From contig MHDQ01000121.1 of the NCBI GenBank assembly GCA_001803565.1, positions 1 to 7,353 on the forward strand: DNA of 7,353 bases, in the 5' to 3' direction. Position 1 is the first letter of the stretch. Each line of letters begins with the position of its first letter. Of this stretch, positions 248 to 7,353 are shown in pieces. The position numbers and the translations under genes were made by a program. A model generated the notes under the pieces. That model had not been told where the DNA came from. It saw only the letters and a program-made list of their open reading frames with translations, and ran no database searches. Origin of the DNA: Nitrospinae bacterium RIFCSPLOWO2_12_FULL_45_22. GTDB taxonomy: Bacteria; 2-12-FULL-45-22.

Positions 248-3200
248 TTATACTTTTTCCCGGTGCAGGTACCAGAGGGTCTTGGCCCTTACCCATCGCG
301 CCCAACCATCCAGGATCAAATAGATAGTAGGCATAACCACCAGGGTCAGTAAGGTACTGCAAAGCAATCCGCCAAAAATGGCCCAGCCCAGAGGCTGTTT
401 CATCTCAGAGCCATCTCCCCCCATAATCGCCATAGGCAAAACCCCTAAAAGAGTAGTTACGGTAGTCATGAGTATGGGCCGGAGGCGAGTAGAGCCAGCT
501 TTTATGATAGCCTCTCGGACCGGTAATCCCCTCTCCCGTAACCGGTTAATATAATCCACCAGGACAATGCCATTATTGACCACCACACCCATTACACAAA
601 TAATACCAATAAAGGATGGGACTGAGAGATAAGTCCGGCTAAGGAATAGGGCCCAGAATACCCCTATCAGACTATAGGGCACGGAAAACATAATAATAAA
701 AGGGTGGGTCAGGGATTCGAACTGAGCAGCCATGACCATATAGACCAGGGTAATAGCCAATATGAAGCCCAGGCTCAGGCTTAGAAAGGACTCGATCATA
801 TTCTTATAAGAGCCGCTATATTCGATGAAGTATCCAGGCGGCATTCTAAGCCCCTCCAGTCCATCCTTTATCCGGCCTATCACCCAGGCCAGGTCTTTAC
901 CGCTGATATTGGCGGTGATAGTAGCGACCCGCTTTTGTCCTTCCCGATAGACCTTGCTCGGCCCACTGGATTTAACTACCCTGGCAATATCCCTTAAATA
1001 AATTTGGCTACCAAAGGGAGTGGTAAGGAGGATATTTTCCAGGTCCGCAATACTATCCCGATCCCGTTCCCTTAGCCTCACCCGGATATCAATCTCATCC
1101 CCTTTATCTTTATACCGGCTGGCTACCTCACCATCTATACCCGCATCTAATAGATGCCCTATCTGCCGCACCGTCAAGCCAAACTGGGCCATCTTATCCC
1201 GGTCAAACTGGACATGGAGTTCTGGATCGCCAAAGGTAAATACTTCTTCTACGTCATATACTCCATCCACCGTTTTTATCTTTTCTGTTACAAGCTGAGA
1301 GAGCTGGGTTAGGATGAAGAGGTCTTTGCCGAAGATATTTACCTCTACCGGCTTGGTGCCGGCACCACCCAGGGAATGGGTCTGGAGATTAACAAAATTG
1401 AACTTCTCTACCCCAGGGATCTTTGTAATGTCCTCCCGTAACGCATTGACGATCCCTTCGGTATCCTTATCCCGCTCCTTCCGGTCTACTAGCCGGGTCA
1501 TGAACATGGCCCGCTTACCGTCAAAGGTACTCTGGCCCATAGTCCCACCTCGCGCTATACCGACCACGGTATGTTCTCCTTTTACTTCTGGCCTTTTGAA
1601 TATGACATTTTCTATCTGGTGGGCTATCCGGTCGGTCTCTTCTAGCTTAGTACCGATGGGTGTCTCAATATCTAGCATGAAGGTAGGAGAATCGGCTAGC
1701 GGCATGAACTCTTTACCTATAGGGATAATCAGGAGCAGGCTCCCAAGGAAGAAAAGGGTACTACCACCCAAAGTGACCATTTTATGGTTCAAGACCCAAT
1801 TTAATAGACCTTGATAAAGCCGGATAACTGGTTTTAACCACTTATCCTGAGCGGTTCGAACCAGGTGGGCGTTTAGCAATTTAGAGCTCAGCATAGGGAC
1901 AACGGTCAAGGCGATTACTAATGACATCATGAGGGAATAGGCTACGGTGAGGGCCAGCTCGCGGAATATCCGGGCCGAGATACCGGTAGTAAAGACAATA
2001 GGTATAAAGACGACGATAGAAGTTAAGGTAGAGGCAGTAATGGCCATCATTACCTCGTTCGTTCCTTCCCGGGCCGCGCTCAACCTGTCCTTCCCCTCTT
2101 CTTTGATATGACGGAAGATATTTTCCAACACTACAATCGAGTTGTCTACCAGCATCCCTACGGCCAGTAATATCCCTCCAATGGTCATCATATTAATGGT
2201 CAAGCCAGTAAAATATATGGGGATAAAGGTAGCCAGGATAGAAAAGGGGATAGCCAGGCTGATTATCAGGGTGGGCCTGATCTGGCGCAGAAAGAAAAAT
2301 ATTACTATGATAGCTAAGAGGCCGCCCTGCCATATATTGTCCCGGACATTGCCCATAGCCATATGGATATAATCAGCCTGGTCAAAGTGCTTGCTCAGGG
2401 TCACTCCGGGCGGCAGGTGCTTCCTCATCTGATGAATCTTCTTCCAGACCTTCTTGGATATTTGTACTGGGTTGACCCCGGTCTGCTTGAGGATAACTAC
2501 CATCCCGCCGGGCTGCTGATTATGCCGGGAATAGACCAGGGTCTCGGCATAAGTATCATAGACCCGGGCGATATCCCGCAGCCGGATAGGGGCCTGACCC
2601 TTTATTGCCAGGACCATCTCGCCTAACTCACTGACCTGGCTCACCTCCCCTAAGGCCCTGACCAGATAATCTTTCTGCCCCTCTTTTATATTACCGGCGG
2701 AGATGTTTAAATTTTCCCGGTTCAGGGTTTGCAATACCTGATCCAGGGCCAGGCCATAACCCGCCAGCTTCTCCTGATCTACGGCTACCAACACCTCTCT
2801 ATCTGAGCCGCTATAGACCGAGACCGAGGCCACGCCATCAACGGCGGTCAACTGGTCTTTAATGTAGTCATCGGCGATCTTCTTCAACTGGTGCACGTCA
2901 TACCCACCGCCAGAGAAGCTCAACATCATCACCGGGATATCCGAGGGGTTAAACTTGGCAATGATGGGCTTATGAGCCTCATCCGGCCAAAAATGATCCG
3001 GTATCTGATCTATCTTCTCCCGCACCTCTACCGGCGCAATATCCATATCCGTGCCCCATTCAAACTCTACCGAGACCACCGAGAACTCCCGTTTCGAGAT
3101 AGAGGTTATCTTTTTTACCCCAGAGATGGAATTAACTGCCCCCTCGATCAGCTTGGTCAAAGACTCTTCGATCTCCTCGGGCCCTACGCCTTCATATTCG

Positions 3201-3346
3201 GTGACAATAGTGACAAAAGGGAAGGTCAGGTCGGGTAAGAGATCAACCGGGAGCCGGGAGAATGAGGCTAGGCCTAAGATAATGATGATCAGGATGATCA
3301 TAGAGGCCGCTACTGAGCGGCGGACCGAGAAATCTGATAGGGACAT
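248..3346 (-). CDS. RND efflux transporter permease subunit (HAE1/AcrB-like)
   Basis: This inner-membrane, proton-driven exporter would pump drugs, lipids or solvents through a tripartite channel. At 1032 residues it is full length for the AcrB type (about 1030-1050). TM1 is at 12-30, followed by the family stretch PVDLLPDL (33-40). The first porter domain spans roughly 40-335. TM2-TM6 lie at about 338-487 and TM7 at 524-543. The second porter domain covers about 550-850, and TM8-TM12 about 856-1012. The TM4 signature GMLVDNSIVVLENI spans 397-410. D401 matches AcrB Asp407, but the second Asp (408) is Asn402. In TM10, VVVNNGIVLVDY (921-932) puts Asn924 where AcrB has Lys940. The TM11 Arg (Arg971 in AcrB) is kept as Arg954 in RLRPILM. 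These equivalences rest on my recall of AcrB. The start codon overlaps the adaptor stop by one base (TGATG), with AGGAG 8 bases upstream, so the two are translationally coupled. The substrate cannot be told. The DN/NN pattern argues against CzcA/CusA metal pumps and for a divergent HAE1 branch, with moderate certainty. Confidence 0.95.
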   Translation of the reverse strand: MSLSDFSVRRSVAASMIILIIIILGLASFSRLPVDLLPDLTFPFVTIVTEYEGVGPEEIEESLTKLIEGAVNSISGVKKITSISKREFSVVSVEFEWGTDMDIAPVEVREKIDQIPDHFWPDEAHKPIIAKFNPSDIPVMMLSFSGGGYDVHQLKKIADDYIKDQLTAVDGVASVSVYSGSDREVLVAVDQEKLAGYGLALDQVLQTLNRENLNISAGNIKEGQKDYLVRALGEVSQVSELGEMVLAIKGQAPIRLRDIARVYDTYAETLVYSRHNQQPGGMVVILKQTGVNPVQISKKVWKKIHQMRKHLPPGVTLSKHFDQADYIHMAMGNVRDNIWQGGLLAIIVIFFFLRQIRPTLIISLAIPFSILATFIPIYFTGLTINMMTIGGILLAVGMLVDNSIVVLENIFRHIKEEGKDRLSAAREGTNEVMMAITASTLTSIVVFIPIVFTTGISARIFRELALTVAYSLMMSLVIALTVVPMLSSKLLNAHLVRTAQDKWLKPVIRLYQGLLNWVLNHKMVTLGGSTLFFLGSLLLIIPIGKEFMPLADSPTFMLDIETPIGTKLEETDRIAHQIENVIFKRPEVKGEHTVVGIARGGTMGQSTFDGKRAMFMTRLVDRKERDKDTEGIVNALREDITKIPGVEKFNFVNLQTHSLGGAGTKPVEVNIFGKDLFILTQLSQLVTEKIKTVDGVYDVEEVFTFGDPELHVQFDRDKMAQFGLTVRQIGHLLDAGIDGEVASRYKDKGDEIDIRVRLRERDRDSIADLENILLTTPFGSQIYLRDIARVVKSSGPSKVYREGQKRVATITANISGKDLAWVIGRIKDGLEGLRMPPGYFIEYSGSYKNMIESFLSLSLGFILAITLVYMVMAAQFESLTHPFIIMFSVPYSLIGVFWALFLSRTYLSVPSFIGIICVMGVVVNNGIVLVDYINRLRERGLPVREAIIKAGSTRLRPILMTTVTTLLGVLPMAIMGGDGSEMKQPLGWAIFGGLLCSTLLTLVVMPTIYLILDGWARWVRAKTLWYLHREKV

Positions 3347-4452
3347 CAGTTAATCTCCTGGTTAGAAAAGAATACCCGGGCACCGTGGGCCAGCCCATAA
3401 TTCCCTTCGGTTACTACCAACTCGCCTGCTTTTATACCAGCCAGTACCTCTATCTTACCATCTTGCTCATAACCGGTGCGGACTTCTATCCTATGGGCAA
3501 TAGAGTTGTTCACTTTATAAGCCACCTTCTTGGCCCCTATCTCGGCAATGGCGGATTTGGGTACTAATATCACGTCCCTATGCTCGGCTACCTGAATCTT
3601 TACCCGGGAGAACATACCGGCATTAAGTAACCTTTCTTCATTAGGGACTTCGATAGTTACTTTCAAGGTACGACTCTGGGGGTCTATTAGCGGTCGAATC
3701 TGGATGATCTTGCCAGTAAAGGTCTTTGCCGGATAACTATCTATTACTACCAGGGACTCTTGCCCTAATTGAATCTCGGCCTTTTTTATCTCTGACACCT
3801 CTACTTCGGCCTTTACCCGTGAGATATCCATTAGATGTAGCAAAGGTAGTCCCGGACTGATCTGCTCCGCCTCATTAGCGTATTTCTGGACAATGGTTCC
3901 AGCAAAAGGGGCCCTGATCCAGGTGTTATCCAACTGGGTTTGAGCCATCTTAAGCTGTGCCTGTGCCTCTTTTCGCTGGGCCAAAGAAATACTATATTGG
4001 CTCTGCAAACGGTCATATTCTTGCTGCGAGATGACCTTTTGCTGAGATAATTGCTCTGCCCGCTGCCAGTCTCCTTTGGCATTATTTAATCTTGCCTCGG
4101 CCAATTCTAACTGGGCCCGGGCCTGGTCTAAGGCAATAGCCAGCTCGTTATCTTCCAATTGGATGAGCAGATCGCCTTTGCTGACCTCCGAGCCTTCTCC
4201 TACCAGTATCTTCTCTATCTTGCCCGGGATCTTAGAGCTGATCTTGGTCTCTGCCCAGGGAAAGAGGGTACCTATTGCCGGGATATAATAATTGATGTCT
4301 CCCTTTGTTGCCCGGCTTACTTTGACCGGGATAGCATACTCTCCTTCGGCCTTCTTATCATCCGGAGAGCTCTCTGAGACTATTCCACACCCTGCCAGAA
4401 CGATCACCACCGCTACTAAAATACTTAGCTTATGCATGCCTGCTTGTTTCAT
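3346..4452 (-). CDS. RND periplasmic adaptor (membrane-fusion) lipoprotein
   Basis: This membrane-fusion protein would link the permease to an outer-membrane channel. It has 368 residues, within the usual MFP range. The signal peptide at 1-21 ends in the lipobox LAGC, giving lipidation at Cys22. The +2 residue is Gly (CGI), unlike the Asp of E. coli AcrA. Order of parts: barrel-sandwich half one at about 66-100 (ISSKIPGKIEKILVGEGSEV); an alanine/glutamine/leucine-rich coiled-coil hairpin at about 102-173; barrel-sandwich half two at about 178-208 (IRAPFAGTIVQK); a beta-barrel at about 212-288 (including PLIDPQSRTLKV); and a membrane-proximal domain at about 290-365 (VPKSAI, then GIKAGELVVTEG). 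I chose the start at 4452 because AGGTGG lies 10 bases upstream. The alternative ATG six codons in (4437) has a weaker site. It is the first gene of the operon, and the permease follows with a one-base overlap. No outer-membrane factor or regulator gene is adjacent in the window. Confidence 0.95.
   Translation of the reverse strand: MKQAGMHKLSILVAVVIVLAGCGIVSESSPDDKKAEGEYAIPVKVSRATKGDINYYIPAIGTLFPWAETKISSKIPGKIEKILVGEGSEVSKGDLLIQLEDNELAIALDQARAQLELAEARLNNAKGDWQRAEQLSQQKVISQQEYDRLQSQYSISLAQRKEAQAQLKMAQTQLDNTWIRAPFAGTIVQKYANEAEQISPGLPLLHLMDISRVKAEVEVSEIKKAEIQLGQESLVVIDSYPAKTFTGKIIQIRPLIDPQSRTLKVTIEVPNEERLLNAGMFSRVKIQVAEHRDVILVPKSAIAEIGAKKVAYKVNNSIAHRIEVRTGYEQDGKIEVLAGIKAGELVVTEGNYGLAHGARVFFSNQEIN
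3355..3359 (-). promoter_or_regulatory. ribosome binding site of the RND permease gene
   Basis: AGGAG on the minus strand lies 8 bases before the permease ATG, inside the last codons of the adaptor gene. Together with the overlapping TGATG stop/start it fixes the permease start and indicates coupled translation. Confidence 0.75.
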
Positions 4453-4734: not shown

Positions 4735-4753
4735 GGGTTTTTAATGTAGGGTG

Positions 4754-4761
4754 GGAAGGAG
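4754..4761 (+). promoter_or_regulatory. ribosome binding site deciding the priA start
   Basis: GGAAGGAG lies 7 bases before ATG 4769. An upstream in-frame GTG at 4751 would place this Shine-Dalgarno sequence inside the gene. The ATG is therefore the better start, and it also gives the usual PriA N-terminus, a short lead into VEILLPLP. Confidence 0.8.
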
Positions 4762-4768
4762 TTCTTCT

Positions 4769-7042
4769 ATGTCATATGTTGAGATTTTATTACCATTACC
4801 TATAGATTATCCCTTTACCTATTCTATACCTAAAGGACTGGAAGCCAAAGTTCAATTAGGGAGTCGGGTACTGGTGCCGTTTGGGCGACGGCGATTAACG
4901 GGTTGCATAGTAGGTTTTAGTCAGGAGAGCTCATTAGCCCAGATTAAGGAGATAATAGAGGTATTGGATGATACCCCTTCGGTGGATGCGAAATTATTAG
5001 AGTTAACCCAGTGGGTAGCAGGGTATTATTTTGCCCCGTGGGGAGAGGTGATTAAGGCGGCTTTGCCAGGCCAAATGCTCCTTTCTGCTACCCAATATTT
5101 GCATATTACCGAGGAAGGGCAGATGGCCCTCCAGCAAGGAGGTCTTACGGAGCCAGCAGGTACGATTTTGACCTTTATAGCTAGCCAGAAAAGGGTCAGG
5201 AAAGACCATTTAATTAAGGCCATCGGCCATAAAAAGACTGGCCTCCAAATAGACTTGCTCCAGGAAAAGGGCTGGATCGAAGCGGAATGGAAAACCAGGA
5301 AAACAGGGGTTAGAACCAAGCCCGATGGAATTTATCCCTCCCCCCTCCCCCTCACTCAAGGGGATGGGGTGATGGGGGGGGTGATAGGGCCTGAACTCGC
5401 CCAAGAAGAGTTGACGGCTGATCAGGAAAGGGCCTTAGCTGTTATTGTGGAGGCCATTGAGTGGGGGGAGTTCAAGGTATTTTTATTGCAAGGGGTAACC
5501 GGTAGCGGCAAGACTGAATTATATCTTCAGGCAGTCGGATTAACTTTGGCAAGAGGTAAACAGGCCCTGATCCTGGTCCCTGAGATAGCCTTAACCCCCC
5601 GGCTAATGGAATTGTTCAGGGATCGCTTTGGAGACCGAGTAGGGGTCCTACATAGCGGTCTCCTACCAGGAGAGCGGATGGTGGAATGGCGAAGAATAAG
5701 AGACAAGAAAGCAGATGTGGCTATAGGGGCCCGATCGGCCGTATTTGCCCCGTTTAATAATCTGGGTCTGATTGTAGTGGATGAAGAGCATGATAGTGCT
5801 TATAAACAAGAAGAAGGCCCACGGTATAATGCCCGGGATATAGCGGTCATGCGGGGTAAGCTAACCGGCTCGCTCGTGATCCTCGGCTCCGCTACCCCTT
5901 CGCTAGAGTCCTTCTTTAATGTCAGAAACAGGAAATTTCACCCCCTAATCCTTCCCCGCCGCATCCTGGATCGGCCCTTACCGACAGTAGAGATTGTAGA
6001 CCTGAGGGAAGAGAAGCGGTACCTGAGAAGGCCAGTATTCTTTTCTGCCCGGCTAAAAGAGGCTATAGAACAGAGAATAGCACGGGGAGAACAGACCCTG
6101 CTATTCCTTAACCGGCGTGGTTTTGCCCCCTTCATCCAATGTACTGACTGTGGTTTTGTCTTTCAGTGTCTTAACTGTGATGTATCCCTCACTTACCACC
6201 GCACCGAGGATCTTATGCGGTGCCACTATTGTGGCGAGCAGGTAAAAGTGACTGATGTTTGCCCCCAGTGTCATGGGATAAAGCTCTTACCCTTTGGCAT
6301 AGGTACCCAGAGGTTGGAAGAAGAGCTCAGGAAGGTATTTTCTGGGGCACGGATTGCCCGCTTAGACCGGGACATTGCGCGGAAATGGCTGGAGACCAGG
6401 AAAGTCCTGGCGGGGTTGAGGGATGGGTCGCTAGATATCCTGGTCGGGACCCAACTTATTGCCAAGGGGCATGATTATCCAGGGATAACTCTGGTAGGGG
6501 TGATCTCGGCTGATATCTCTTTGAATATACCGGATTTCCGGGCTGCGGAAAGAACTTATCAACTACTTACCCAGGTAGCAGGCAGGGCCGGTAGAGGAAC
6601 CCTCAAGGGAGAGGTAATTATTCAGACTTATAATCCACACCACTATGCCATCCAGTCGGCCAAAGGCCATGATTATCACGAGTTCTGTCGCCAGGAGCTG
6701 GAGTTCCGGCGGCGCCTCAACTATCCGCCTTTTAGCCGTATGATAGCGATAAGGATCGAGAGTCCTAACCAACAAAGATGCCAAGAGGCAGCAGCTCATT
6801 TAGGAGAGTTAATCCAGCAGGTTAAATCTCCGTATAGCGATAAGGTAGAAATACTGGGGCCTTCCCGGGCCATGCGGGCAAAGATCCGGAACCGATACCG
6901 GTGGCAGATATTGCTAAAGGCGCCCCGGATTAAAATCCTGGCGGGGATAATCAGAGAATCCCTAAAAAAGCCCTATTTATCTACTTGCAAAAGCTCCAAT
7001 ATTAGGATAAATATTGATGTAGACCCAGTTGATATGTTATGA
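4769..7042 (+). CDS. priA: primosomal protein N' (PriA), replication restart helicase
   Basis: PriA is a 3'-to-5' superfamily 2 helicase that recognises stalled forks and D-loops and reloads the replicative helicase. From the ATG it has 757 residues (E. coli about 730, B. subtilis about 805). The 3'-DNA-end binding domain is at about 1-105 (including VLVPFGRRRLTGCIVGF), and a winged helix follows to about 180. Walker A GVTGSGKT is at 242-249, DEEH at 338-341 and GSATPS at 373-378. The zinc-binding domain has all eight cysteines in four CxxC pairs: 458/461, 467/470, 485/488, 498/501. Motif V is at about 570 (VGTQLIAKGHDYPG) and motif VI is QVAGRAGRG (602-610). The C-terminal domain includes YPPFSRM and ends DVDPVDML. 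All catalytic residues are intact, so the gene looks functional. One oddity is a palindromic, proline/glycine-coding stretch at residues 189-206 in the linker before the helicase core. def follows 216 bases downstream, the common priA-def order. Confidence 0.97.
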   Translation: MSYVEILLPLPIDYPFTYSIPKGLEAKVQLGSRVLVPFGRRRLTGCIVGFSQESSLAQIKEIIEVLDDTPSVDAKLLELTQWVAGYYFAPWGEVIKAALPGQMLLSATQYLHITEEGQMALQQGGLTEPAGTILTFIASQKRVRKDHLIKAIGHKKTGLQIDLLQEKGWIEAEWKTRKTGVRTKPDGIYPSPLPLTQGDGVMGGVIGPELAQEELTADQERALAVIVEAIEWGEFKVFLLQGVTGSGKTELYLQAVGLTLARGKQALILVPEIALTPRLMELFRDRFGDRVGVLHSGLLPGERMVEWRRIRDKKADVAIGARSAVFAPFNNLGLIVVDEEHDSAYKQEEGPRYNARDIAVMRGKLTGSLVILGSATPSLESFFNVRNRKFHPLILPRRILDRPLPTVEIVDLREEKRYLRRPVFFSARLKEAIEQRIARGEQTLLFLNRRGFAPFIQCTDCGFVFQCLNCDVSLTYHRTEDLMRCHYCGEQVKVTDVCPQCHGIKLLPFGIGTQRLEEELRKVFSGARIARLDRDIARKWLETRKVLAGLRDGSLDILVGTQLIAKGHDYPGITLVGVISADISLNIPDFRAAERTYQLLTQVAGRAGRGTLKGEVIIQTYNPHHYAIQSAKGHDYHEFCRQELEFRRRLNYPPFSRMIAIRIESPNQQRCQEAAAHLGELIQQVKSPYSDKVEILGPSRAMRAKIRNRYRWQILLKAPRIKILAGIIRESLKKPYLSTCKSSNIRINIDVDPVDML
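5333..5386. repeat. palindromic G/C-run element inside priA
   Basis: This imperfect inverted repeat begins TATC and ends GATA. C-runs fill the left half (C6 at 5340-5345, C5 at 5347-5351 with one T between) and G-runs the right half (G4, G4, G8 at 5360-5381). It is in frame and encodes residues 189-206 of PriA (YPSPLPLTQGDGVMGGVI), between the winged helix and the helicase core. Its base and amino-acid composition differ from the rest of the gene. It resembles small palindromic repeats that have invaded reading frames elsewhere, but I cannot show other copies from this window. Confidence 0.6.
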
Positions 7043-7052
7043 AATAAGCGCT

Positions 7053-7105
7053 CAGCTATCAGTAGTCAGCTTTCAGTTAAAACAGCCTATAGCCCATTGC
7101 CTATT
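7053..7105. repeat. two adjacent 7-bp tandem tracts
   Basis: The first tract (7053-7080) has four 7-base units: CAGCTAT, CAGTAGT, CAGCTTT, CAGTTAA. The second (7085-7105) has three: GCCTATA, GCCCATT, GCCTATT. They share the period but not the sequence and are separated by four bases. The tracts start 11 bases after the priA stop and have no coding or promoter features that I can see. From memory, similar CAGCTWT and GCCTATW heptamers occur between genes in many environmental genomes. Confidence 0.7.
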
Positions 7106-7149
7106 GTCTTGCTGGGTATGGCTATTTTCTCTCAGAAATCCATTAAACC

Positions 7150-7202
7150 TGTAGTGGCAGAGCTTGCTCTGCCGAGGATGTCGAGCAAGCTCGACCACTA
7201 CA
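7150..7202. repeat. REP-like pair of hairpins with GTAG ends (BIME-like)
   Basis: Outer arms TGTAGTGG (7150-7157) and CCACTACA (7195-7202) are perfect complements. Inside are two hairpins: GGCAGAGC-TT-GCTCTGCC (7156-7173, 8-bp stem) and GTCGAGC-AA-GCTCGAC (7180-7195, 7-bp stem), joined by GAGGAT. Read inward from either end, each half is GTAGTG followed by a hairpin with the same core, GAGCTTGCTC. A GTAG head followed by a hairpin, in inverted pairs, is the layout of REP/BIME elements moved by REP-associated tyrosine (IS200/IS605-like) transposases. It lies between priA and def and could also act as a transcript-stabilising or attenuating structure. Confidence 0.75.
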
Positions 7203-7244
7203 TGAAATTTTGGGATACTTTATTTGGCTAAACTATTACAATAT

Positions 7245-7258: not shown

Positions 7259-7353
7259 ATGCCGGTGTTAAATATAGTGACTTATCCTAATCCCATCCTG
7301 AGAAAAAAGGCTGCCCCACTAAAAACCATAGATGGCGAAATTCAAGCCCTGAT
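7259..7353 (+). CDS. def: peptide deformylase, N-terminal fragment
   Basis: Peptide deformylase removes the formyl group from the initiator methionine of new proteins, using a metal ion. Only the first 31 residues are in the window; the gene continues past the right edge. MPVLNIVTYPNPILRKKA is the typical deformylase start: a short strand, then a YPxPxLR motif. The catalytic motifs (GxGLAAxQ, EGCLS, HExDH) would lie beyond the edge and cannot be checked. Position after priA is the usual genomic context, often followed by fmt. The fragment shows no sign of disruption. Confidence 0.9.
   Translation, partial: MPVLNIVTYPNPILRKKAAPLKTIDGEIQAL

Follow-up and report, generated by a model that had tools for sequence, protein, structure and literature searches.

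A GTAG-headed REP doublet between priA and def as the core of a probable hybrid MITE in a Nitrospinae genome

The window, a 7,353-nt stretch of DNA from Nitrospinae bacterium RIFCSPLOWO2_12_FULL_45_22 (contig C121 of the host genome G000), carries between priA and def a pair of inverted hairpins that is best explained, with a probability of about 0.75, as a GTAG-class REP head-out heterodimer of the REPIN/BIME type forming the core of a 126-bp hybrid MITE, its hairpins being made by a RAYT, multiplied by MITEs and brought together in their present setting by recombination. Initially, the REP hairpins would have been generated and spread, like other GTAG REPs, by a RAYT that works on hairpins in single-stranded form. 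REP doublets may then have entered several MITEs and been multiplied as passengers by the DDE transposases of these elements. The copy in the window probably arose by recombination, at the doublet, of one doublet borne by an M1 MITE and another borne by an M4 MITE.

The paired hairpins lie at positions 7150–7202, where the original prediction had placed them, with their heads outside. Hairpin A (7151–7173, forward strand; GTAGTGGCAGAGCTTGCTCTGCC) consists of a GTAGT head followed by GGCAGAGC-TT-GCTCTGCC, and hairpin B (7180–7201, reverse strand, read from 7201 to 7180; GTAGTGGTCGAGCTTGCTCGAC) is inverted and carries a GTAGTG head followed by GTCGAGC-TT-GCTCGAC; they are separated by the linker GAGGAT (7174–7179), which was found in none of the other copies examined. 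Both share the predicted core GAGCTTGCTC, and in both a GTAG tetranucleotide stands directly 5' of a palindrome of 20–40 nt, as is characteristic of GTAG-class REPs and BIMEs. The outer arms, TGTAGTGG (7150–7157) and CCACTACA (7195–7202), are perfectly complementary, as had been claimed, and the doublet (fold z-score −6.3 against shuffled sequence) can pair as a single long hairpin. The three-way junction previously proposed for the unit can form but is rejected as its main fold on energetic grounds, since the long hairpin is preferred with both DNA parameters (−17.9 versus −13.0 kcal/mol) and RNA parameters (−32.2 versus −23.3 kcal/mol). The original extent of the unit holds for the doublet, but position 7202 is not the end of the element, which repeated arms on both sides widen to 7114–7239.

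The genome search that had been suggested, covering the number and orientation of GTAGTG-headed hairpins, revealed a repeat family. In the 3.67-Mb host genome (321 contigs, 85% complete), GAGCTTGCTC occurs 93 times and the pattern GTAGTGN{2,8}GCTTGC 83 times, with no occurrence of either in the reversed controls. The loci examined comprise at least 61 distinct units, namely 16 heads-out pairs, 18 heads-in pairs and 27 single hairpins, with inverted doublets accounting for 34 of the 61 and with none of the 61 lying within an ORF of at least 120 aa; mosaic arrays are present in another genome, G039. A set of 84 distinct hairpins from the host and G039, chosen on their 5' half only, contains 412 Watson–Crick stem cells out of 588 as compared with a mean of 312 and a maximum of 340 after shuffling, a test that does not model the kinship of the copies and therefore overstates their independence. 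Two-sided changes occur at stem positions 8/21 (C-G/T-A), 9/20 (A-T/C-G), 10/19 (G-C/A-T) and 13/16 (C-G/T-A), and the stem types of the family are clearly compensated. The earlier observation that the differing stems of the two hairpins keep their own pairing thus extends to the family as a whole, and covariation supports its attribution to selection on structure, but the source of this selection may be a transposase recognising the hairpins instead of a function for the host. Separately, some hairpin tips at six loci (L005, L087, L110, L024, L082 and L250) are swapped for other palindromes, e.g. GGCAGAGCCGGGTACCCTTTGGGTGCTGC, as if small palindromes had inserted into the hairpin loops.

The doublet occupies a 216-bp gap between two genes on the same strand. 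Upstream lies priA (4751–7042, forward strand; Pfam domains PriA_3primeBD, PriA_C and Zn_ribbon_PriA), and downstream lies the start of def, encoding peptide deformylase (7259–7353, forward strand), which is cut by the contig end; the resulting 31-aa fragment matches NF009484 at E 6e-4, its score falling under the model cut-off because the gene is incomplete. The pairing of priA with def is a common bacterial gene neighbourhood. A search with PriA returned relatives belonging to many phyla, with identities of 33–51%. On the reverse strand beside priA (248–4452), the window also contains genes for an RND efflux pump of the AcrB family and a HlyD/CusB-type adaptor. A short internal repeat, GCTCAGCTATCAGTAGTCAGCTTTCAG, is found just past priA at 7049–7076, and this AGCTATCAG-type repeat was discarded as a further high-copy family, not being abundant in 251 kb of loci. 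The location of the doublet raises the possibility of an RNA element of the priA–def transcript, acting as a terminator, an RNase target or an mRNA stabiliser and kept by selection at this site, in keeping with the strong RNA hairpin in the gap and with the covarying stems of the family. However, neither an intrinsic terminator, a T run nor a sigma-70 promoter was found in the priA–def gap, Rfam gave no match for the doublet, the doublet is scattered over many unrelated loci, and recognition of the hairpin by a transposase would equally produce covariation. Such a role is accordingly highly improbable as the explanation of the element. An RNA function and the MITE-borne REP reading are not mutually exclusive, and any effect of the hairpin on the priA–def mRNA would be secondary.

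Alignment of the flanks of the host units revealed repeated arms, from which four families with terminal inverted repeats (TIRs) were defined. M1 elements (106–144 bp) have the ends GGGTGTGGCTATT and a 9-bp target duplication, M2 elements (208–214 bp) the ends GTAACCGTTCA and a duplication of 8 bp, M3 elements (120–123 bp) the ends AGTTGCCACTGAAAAA and one of 4 bp, and M4 elements (51 bp upward) the ends GTAACTGTTTAGCCAAA and again one of 8 bp. At the level of the families, these are short non-coding elements with terminal inverted repeats and target-site duplications, as expected of MITEs. The duplications are supported by comparison with shuffled pairings of the flanks: the mean mismatch is 2.3 versus 4.5 for M1 (examples being AAATCAATT in L084 and TTAGGATTT in L148) and 1.9 versus 4.8 for M2 and M4 (GTGTAGTT in L015 and AAACAAAG in L081), with none of 2000 shuffles as good in either case; for M3, whose duplications are short and AT-rich, the signal is weaker (0.67 versus 1.12; 13 of 2000). 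A MITE arm adjoins at least one side of 47 of the 61 host units; the same MITE lies on both sides in 25 (8 M1, 6 M2, 10 M3 and 1 M4), an arm on one side only in 21, M1 and M4 arms together in one, the window copy, and no arm in 14, counts that describe sharing rather than independent detection because the arm consensuses were built from the same copies. Independent support for the arms comes from M1 and M4 copies without a window-type hairpin. Within each MITE family, the junction between arm and core is nearly constant across copies.

The GTAA ends and 8-bp duplications of M2 and M4 suggest that these ends are of the IS66 type. An autonomous relative of M1 was sought among 41 M1 ends in the fragmented host assembly, and no two exact ends lay at the distance expected of an insertion sequence; autonomous elements for the MITEs could be missing from the data because the assembly is fragmented and incomplete. 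Nested elements were also encountered. At L079 (988–1134), a 147-bp IS66-like MITE with ends GTAAGCGTTCAGCC and the duplication TGACAAAG appears to be nested in an M1 arm, and at L145 (75–317), a 243-bp MITE that has the ends GTAACGGTTCA/TGAACGGTTAC and the duplication GAATTTTT encloses an M1 copy whose core is of the GTAACTC type.

The window copy combines arms of two families. Its left arm (7114–7149, forward strand; GGGTATGGCTATTTTCTCTCAGAAATCCATTAAACC) is that of M1, with the outer end GGGTATGGCTATT shared by intact M1 copies that have 9-bp duplications, and its right arm (7203–7239, reverse strand; GTAATAGTTTAGCCAAATAAAGTATCCCAAAATTTCA) is that of M4, with the outer end GTAATAGTTTAGCC and matches to L235 (identical to L081), L234, L237 and L238. 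The local alignment scores of these flanks are 27 against the M1 arm and 34 against the M4 arm, the maximum for shuffled flanks being 14 in both comparisons. The element between priA and def is thus composed of an M1 arm, the 53-bp doublet and an M4 arm. Since its ends GGGTATGGCTATT and GTAATAGTTTAGCC differ and the adjacent sequences (TGTCTTGCT before 7114 and AATATAGGG after 7239) are unlike, it represents a hybrid without a target duplication, and because of the differing ends it has probably lost its mobility as a MITE. In a fragmented assembly, sequences wrongly joined at a repeat could look like such a hybrid; the GAGGAT linker peculiar to this copy and the priA–def neighbourhood make a misjoin less likely here. 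A second possible hybrid, in which an M4 arm, a hairpin and an M3 arm follow one another, is present at L243, with an assembly gap inside.

The slot occupied by the doublet in M1 is not reserved for one REP family. Between the same M1 arms, three copies (L145, L146 and L152) have a GTAACTC doublet, one (L160) a GTAGGGG doublet and two (L154 and L156) a GTAGCGG doublet, so that the M1 slot accommodates doublets from at least two REP families. Some M4 copies have no REP core at all (L237, 51 bp; L238, 66 bp), and others have different interiors. In the host, a truncated RAYT gene (L010) lies between GTAACTC hairpins, as do intact RAYT genes in another genome, G060 (L178 and L179), so that cores carried by M1 can be recognised as REPs served by an enzyme of known type.

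A profile search with PF01797 returned five Y1 hits in the host. According to NF047646 (NCBIfam), L009, L011 and L012 are RAYTs above the cut-off, and L010 is a fragment; with these RAYTs and 93 copies of the core, the outcome that had been named as fatal to the original prediction, a single copy and no Y1/RAYT gene, did not materialise. Three of the host genes (L010, L011 and L012) are flanked by GTAG or GTAAC hairpins of their own, not by the window hairpin. L011 (1200–2100; G000:C49) is a RAYT with flanking GTAGGG hairpins GTAGGGTRGGCATTGCCYACC and is a second REPtron in the host. L012 (1342–1998; G000:C141) is a RAYT with GTAGTG..GGTCTCCTGACC hairpins that run in frame in its 5' part and within the ORF, where they are read as the peptides AGSGRSPDL and AGSDRSPDL, and an inverted hairpin follows its stop codon; these GTAGTG-headed hairpins, located both outside the gene and in frame within it, have the tip TCTCCTGA, which differs from the tips of the window family. 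A Y1 transposase flanked by the window hairpin had been expected, but among 38 Y1_Tnp hits in eight incompletely assembled genomes (5 in the host and 33 in G039, G060, G115, G117, G207, G251 and G337) none had it on both flanks, and a REPtron in the sense of a RAYT gene between inverted copies of the same REP was accordingly not found for it. The nearest case is L223 (1456–1983) in G117, a Y1 gene scoring 78.3 bits against the NF047646 cut-off of 80, whose ORF contains an exact 22-nt copy of hairpin A (read as VVAELAL) and which has a degenerate copy at its 3' end. The same ORF also holds an inverted CAAAGC hairpin, and its hairpin A is the single exact copy in G117. L076, a Y1 fragment near a REP in G039, was dismissed as the cognate RAYT, as by eye it looks like an IS200-type N-terminus. 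Because no RAYT flanked by the window hairpin was found, the cognate enzyme of the hairpin is one that we infer.

The hairpin also occurs beyond the host. The pattern GTAGTGGYMGAGYTTRCTCKRC was detected in 8 of 386 sampled genomes, the host included, with 145 copies in G039, 15 in G060, 7 in G115 and one or two in the others; G001, of the same order as the host, contains none, and viral contigs gave no match to the hairpin pattern. G039 and G060 belong to the same phylum as each other, and the domain is the only rank that they have in common with the host. The G039 hairpins are arranged as typical REP arrays that lack the M1 ends and common outer arms, yet both stem types are present, and one doublet (L129) has the linker TTTATTT, as in host copies. 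With 145 copies free of M1 ends, the hairpin represents a unit independent of the MITEs.

How the copies reached their present sites can be read in several ways. A RAYT might have inserted each of them, including that in the window, as a REPIN on its own, with palindromic MITEs serving as preferred landing sites. The GTAG heads, the doublets and the RAYTs of the host would suit this account, as would the 14 host units without arms, the G039 arrays, the position of doublets near the MITE centre, as in GTAG-15 of Anabaena (PMC3733652), and the different REP families in the M1 slot. It is nevertheless unlikely, as the near-constant arm–core junction in each MITE family is expected from one insertion followed by MITE copying, the target duplications lie outside the MITE arms, none of the eight genomes yielded a cognate RAYT, and a pair of arms from different families, like that of the window, is not what simple insertion into a single MITE produces. 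The opposite view, that the hairpins are a mere internal palindrome of MITEs unrelated to any REP/RAYT system, could draw on the MITE-borne state of most host copies and on the lack of a RAYT with the window hairpin on both flanks; it is very unlikely given that the same hairpins exist in G039 apart from M1, that the same MITE slot holds REP doublets with known RAYT genes, and that an exact 22-nt copy lies inside the RAYT-like gene L223. The reading of the window unit as a REP pair is right, as indicated by the GTAG doublet, the host RAYTs and the G039 arrays, but the claim that a RAYT mobilises it is incomplete: a cognate RAYT was not found and most copies are MITE-borne. Their spread in the host is better explained by MITE transposition of the DDE type than by a RAYT, because most copies lie between arms with TIRs and duplications. 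More speculatively, and with a low probability, REP doublets may act as exchangeable adaptors between unrelated MITEs, with RAYT-catalysed or recombinational strand exchange at GTAG hairpins swapping arms and cores and giving rise to new hybrid mobile elements, among them the M1/M4 copy of the window and L243 (M4/M3).

Several features of the family have been described before. Alternative stems and head-out heterodimers are a standard feature of GTAG REPs (PMC3733652), and the described families GTAG-1 to GTAG-24 (PMC3733652) resemble that of the window in the GTAG head, a 7–8-bp stem closed by a TT loop of 2 nt, stem residues that vary in complementary pairs, HH and TT heterodimers, intergenic placement and the presence of several families per genome; the window stem GGCAGAGC/GGTCGAGC was not matched to any listed family in a comparison made without consensus sequences. 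Unlike them, most copies of the window family are MITE-borne. REPINs of Pseudomonas (PMC3116915) and BIMEs of E. coli are likewise inverted doublets with a short linker and two stem types, but the window unit differs in having no cognate RAYT found and in the unrelated MITE arms outside it. The association of REPs with MITEs is itself already known: GTAG-15 dimers of Anabaena variabilis occur inside long palindromes (PMC3733652), and QMITE2 of Coxiella burnetii carries a GTAG REP (reviewed in PMC10969869), so that the window element shares with both the placement of a GTAG REP within a MITE or longer palindrome. It differs from these in that its doublet is common to four TIR families, that one MITE family holds several different REP doublets and that hybrid-armed copies occur; in the open-access literature, no REP doublet common to several MITE families and no interchangeable cores with hybrid arms were found. 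In-frame REPs inside tnpA_REP genes are described for RAYT subclass 2.4 (PMC6006769), which L012 resembles in its in-frame GTAGTG hairpins inside and beside the gene and L223 in the hairpin A within its ORF, membership being judged by motifs. In addition, GTAG REPs are cut as single strands by their own TnpA_REP in vitro (PMC8266576), and REPs are known insertion targets of IS elements (PMC1525189).

The implications for the window are small, since what lies between priA and def is the relic of a repeat. As a rule, REPs and MITEs are regarded as separate mobile repeats served by different enzymes, HUH tyrosine transposases for the former and DDE transposases for the latter. Here, four or more MITE families contain the doublet, and a single MITE family takes several types of REP in one slot, so that REP copy number in such a genome cannot be read as RAYT activity alone. 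The repeats of this organism offer a natural test of whether other mobile DNA uses REP hairpins as places to land or to recombine.
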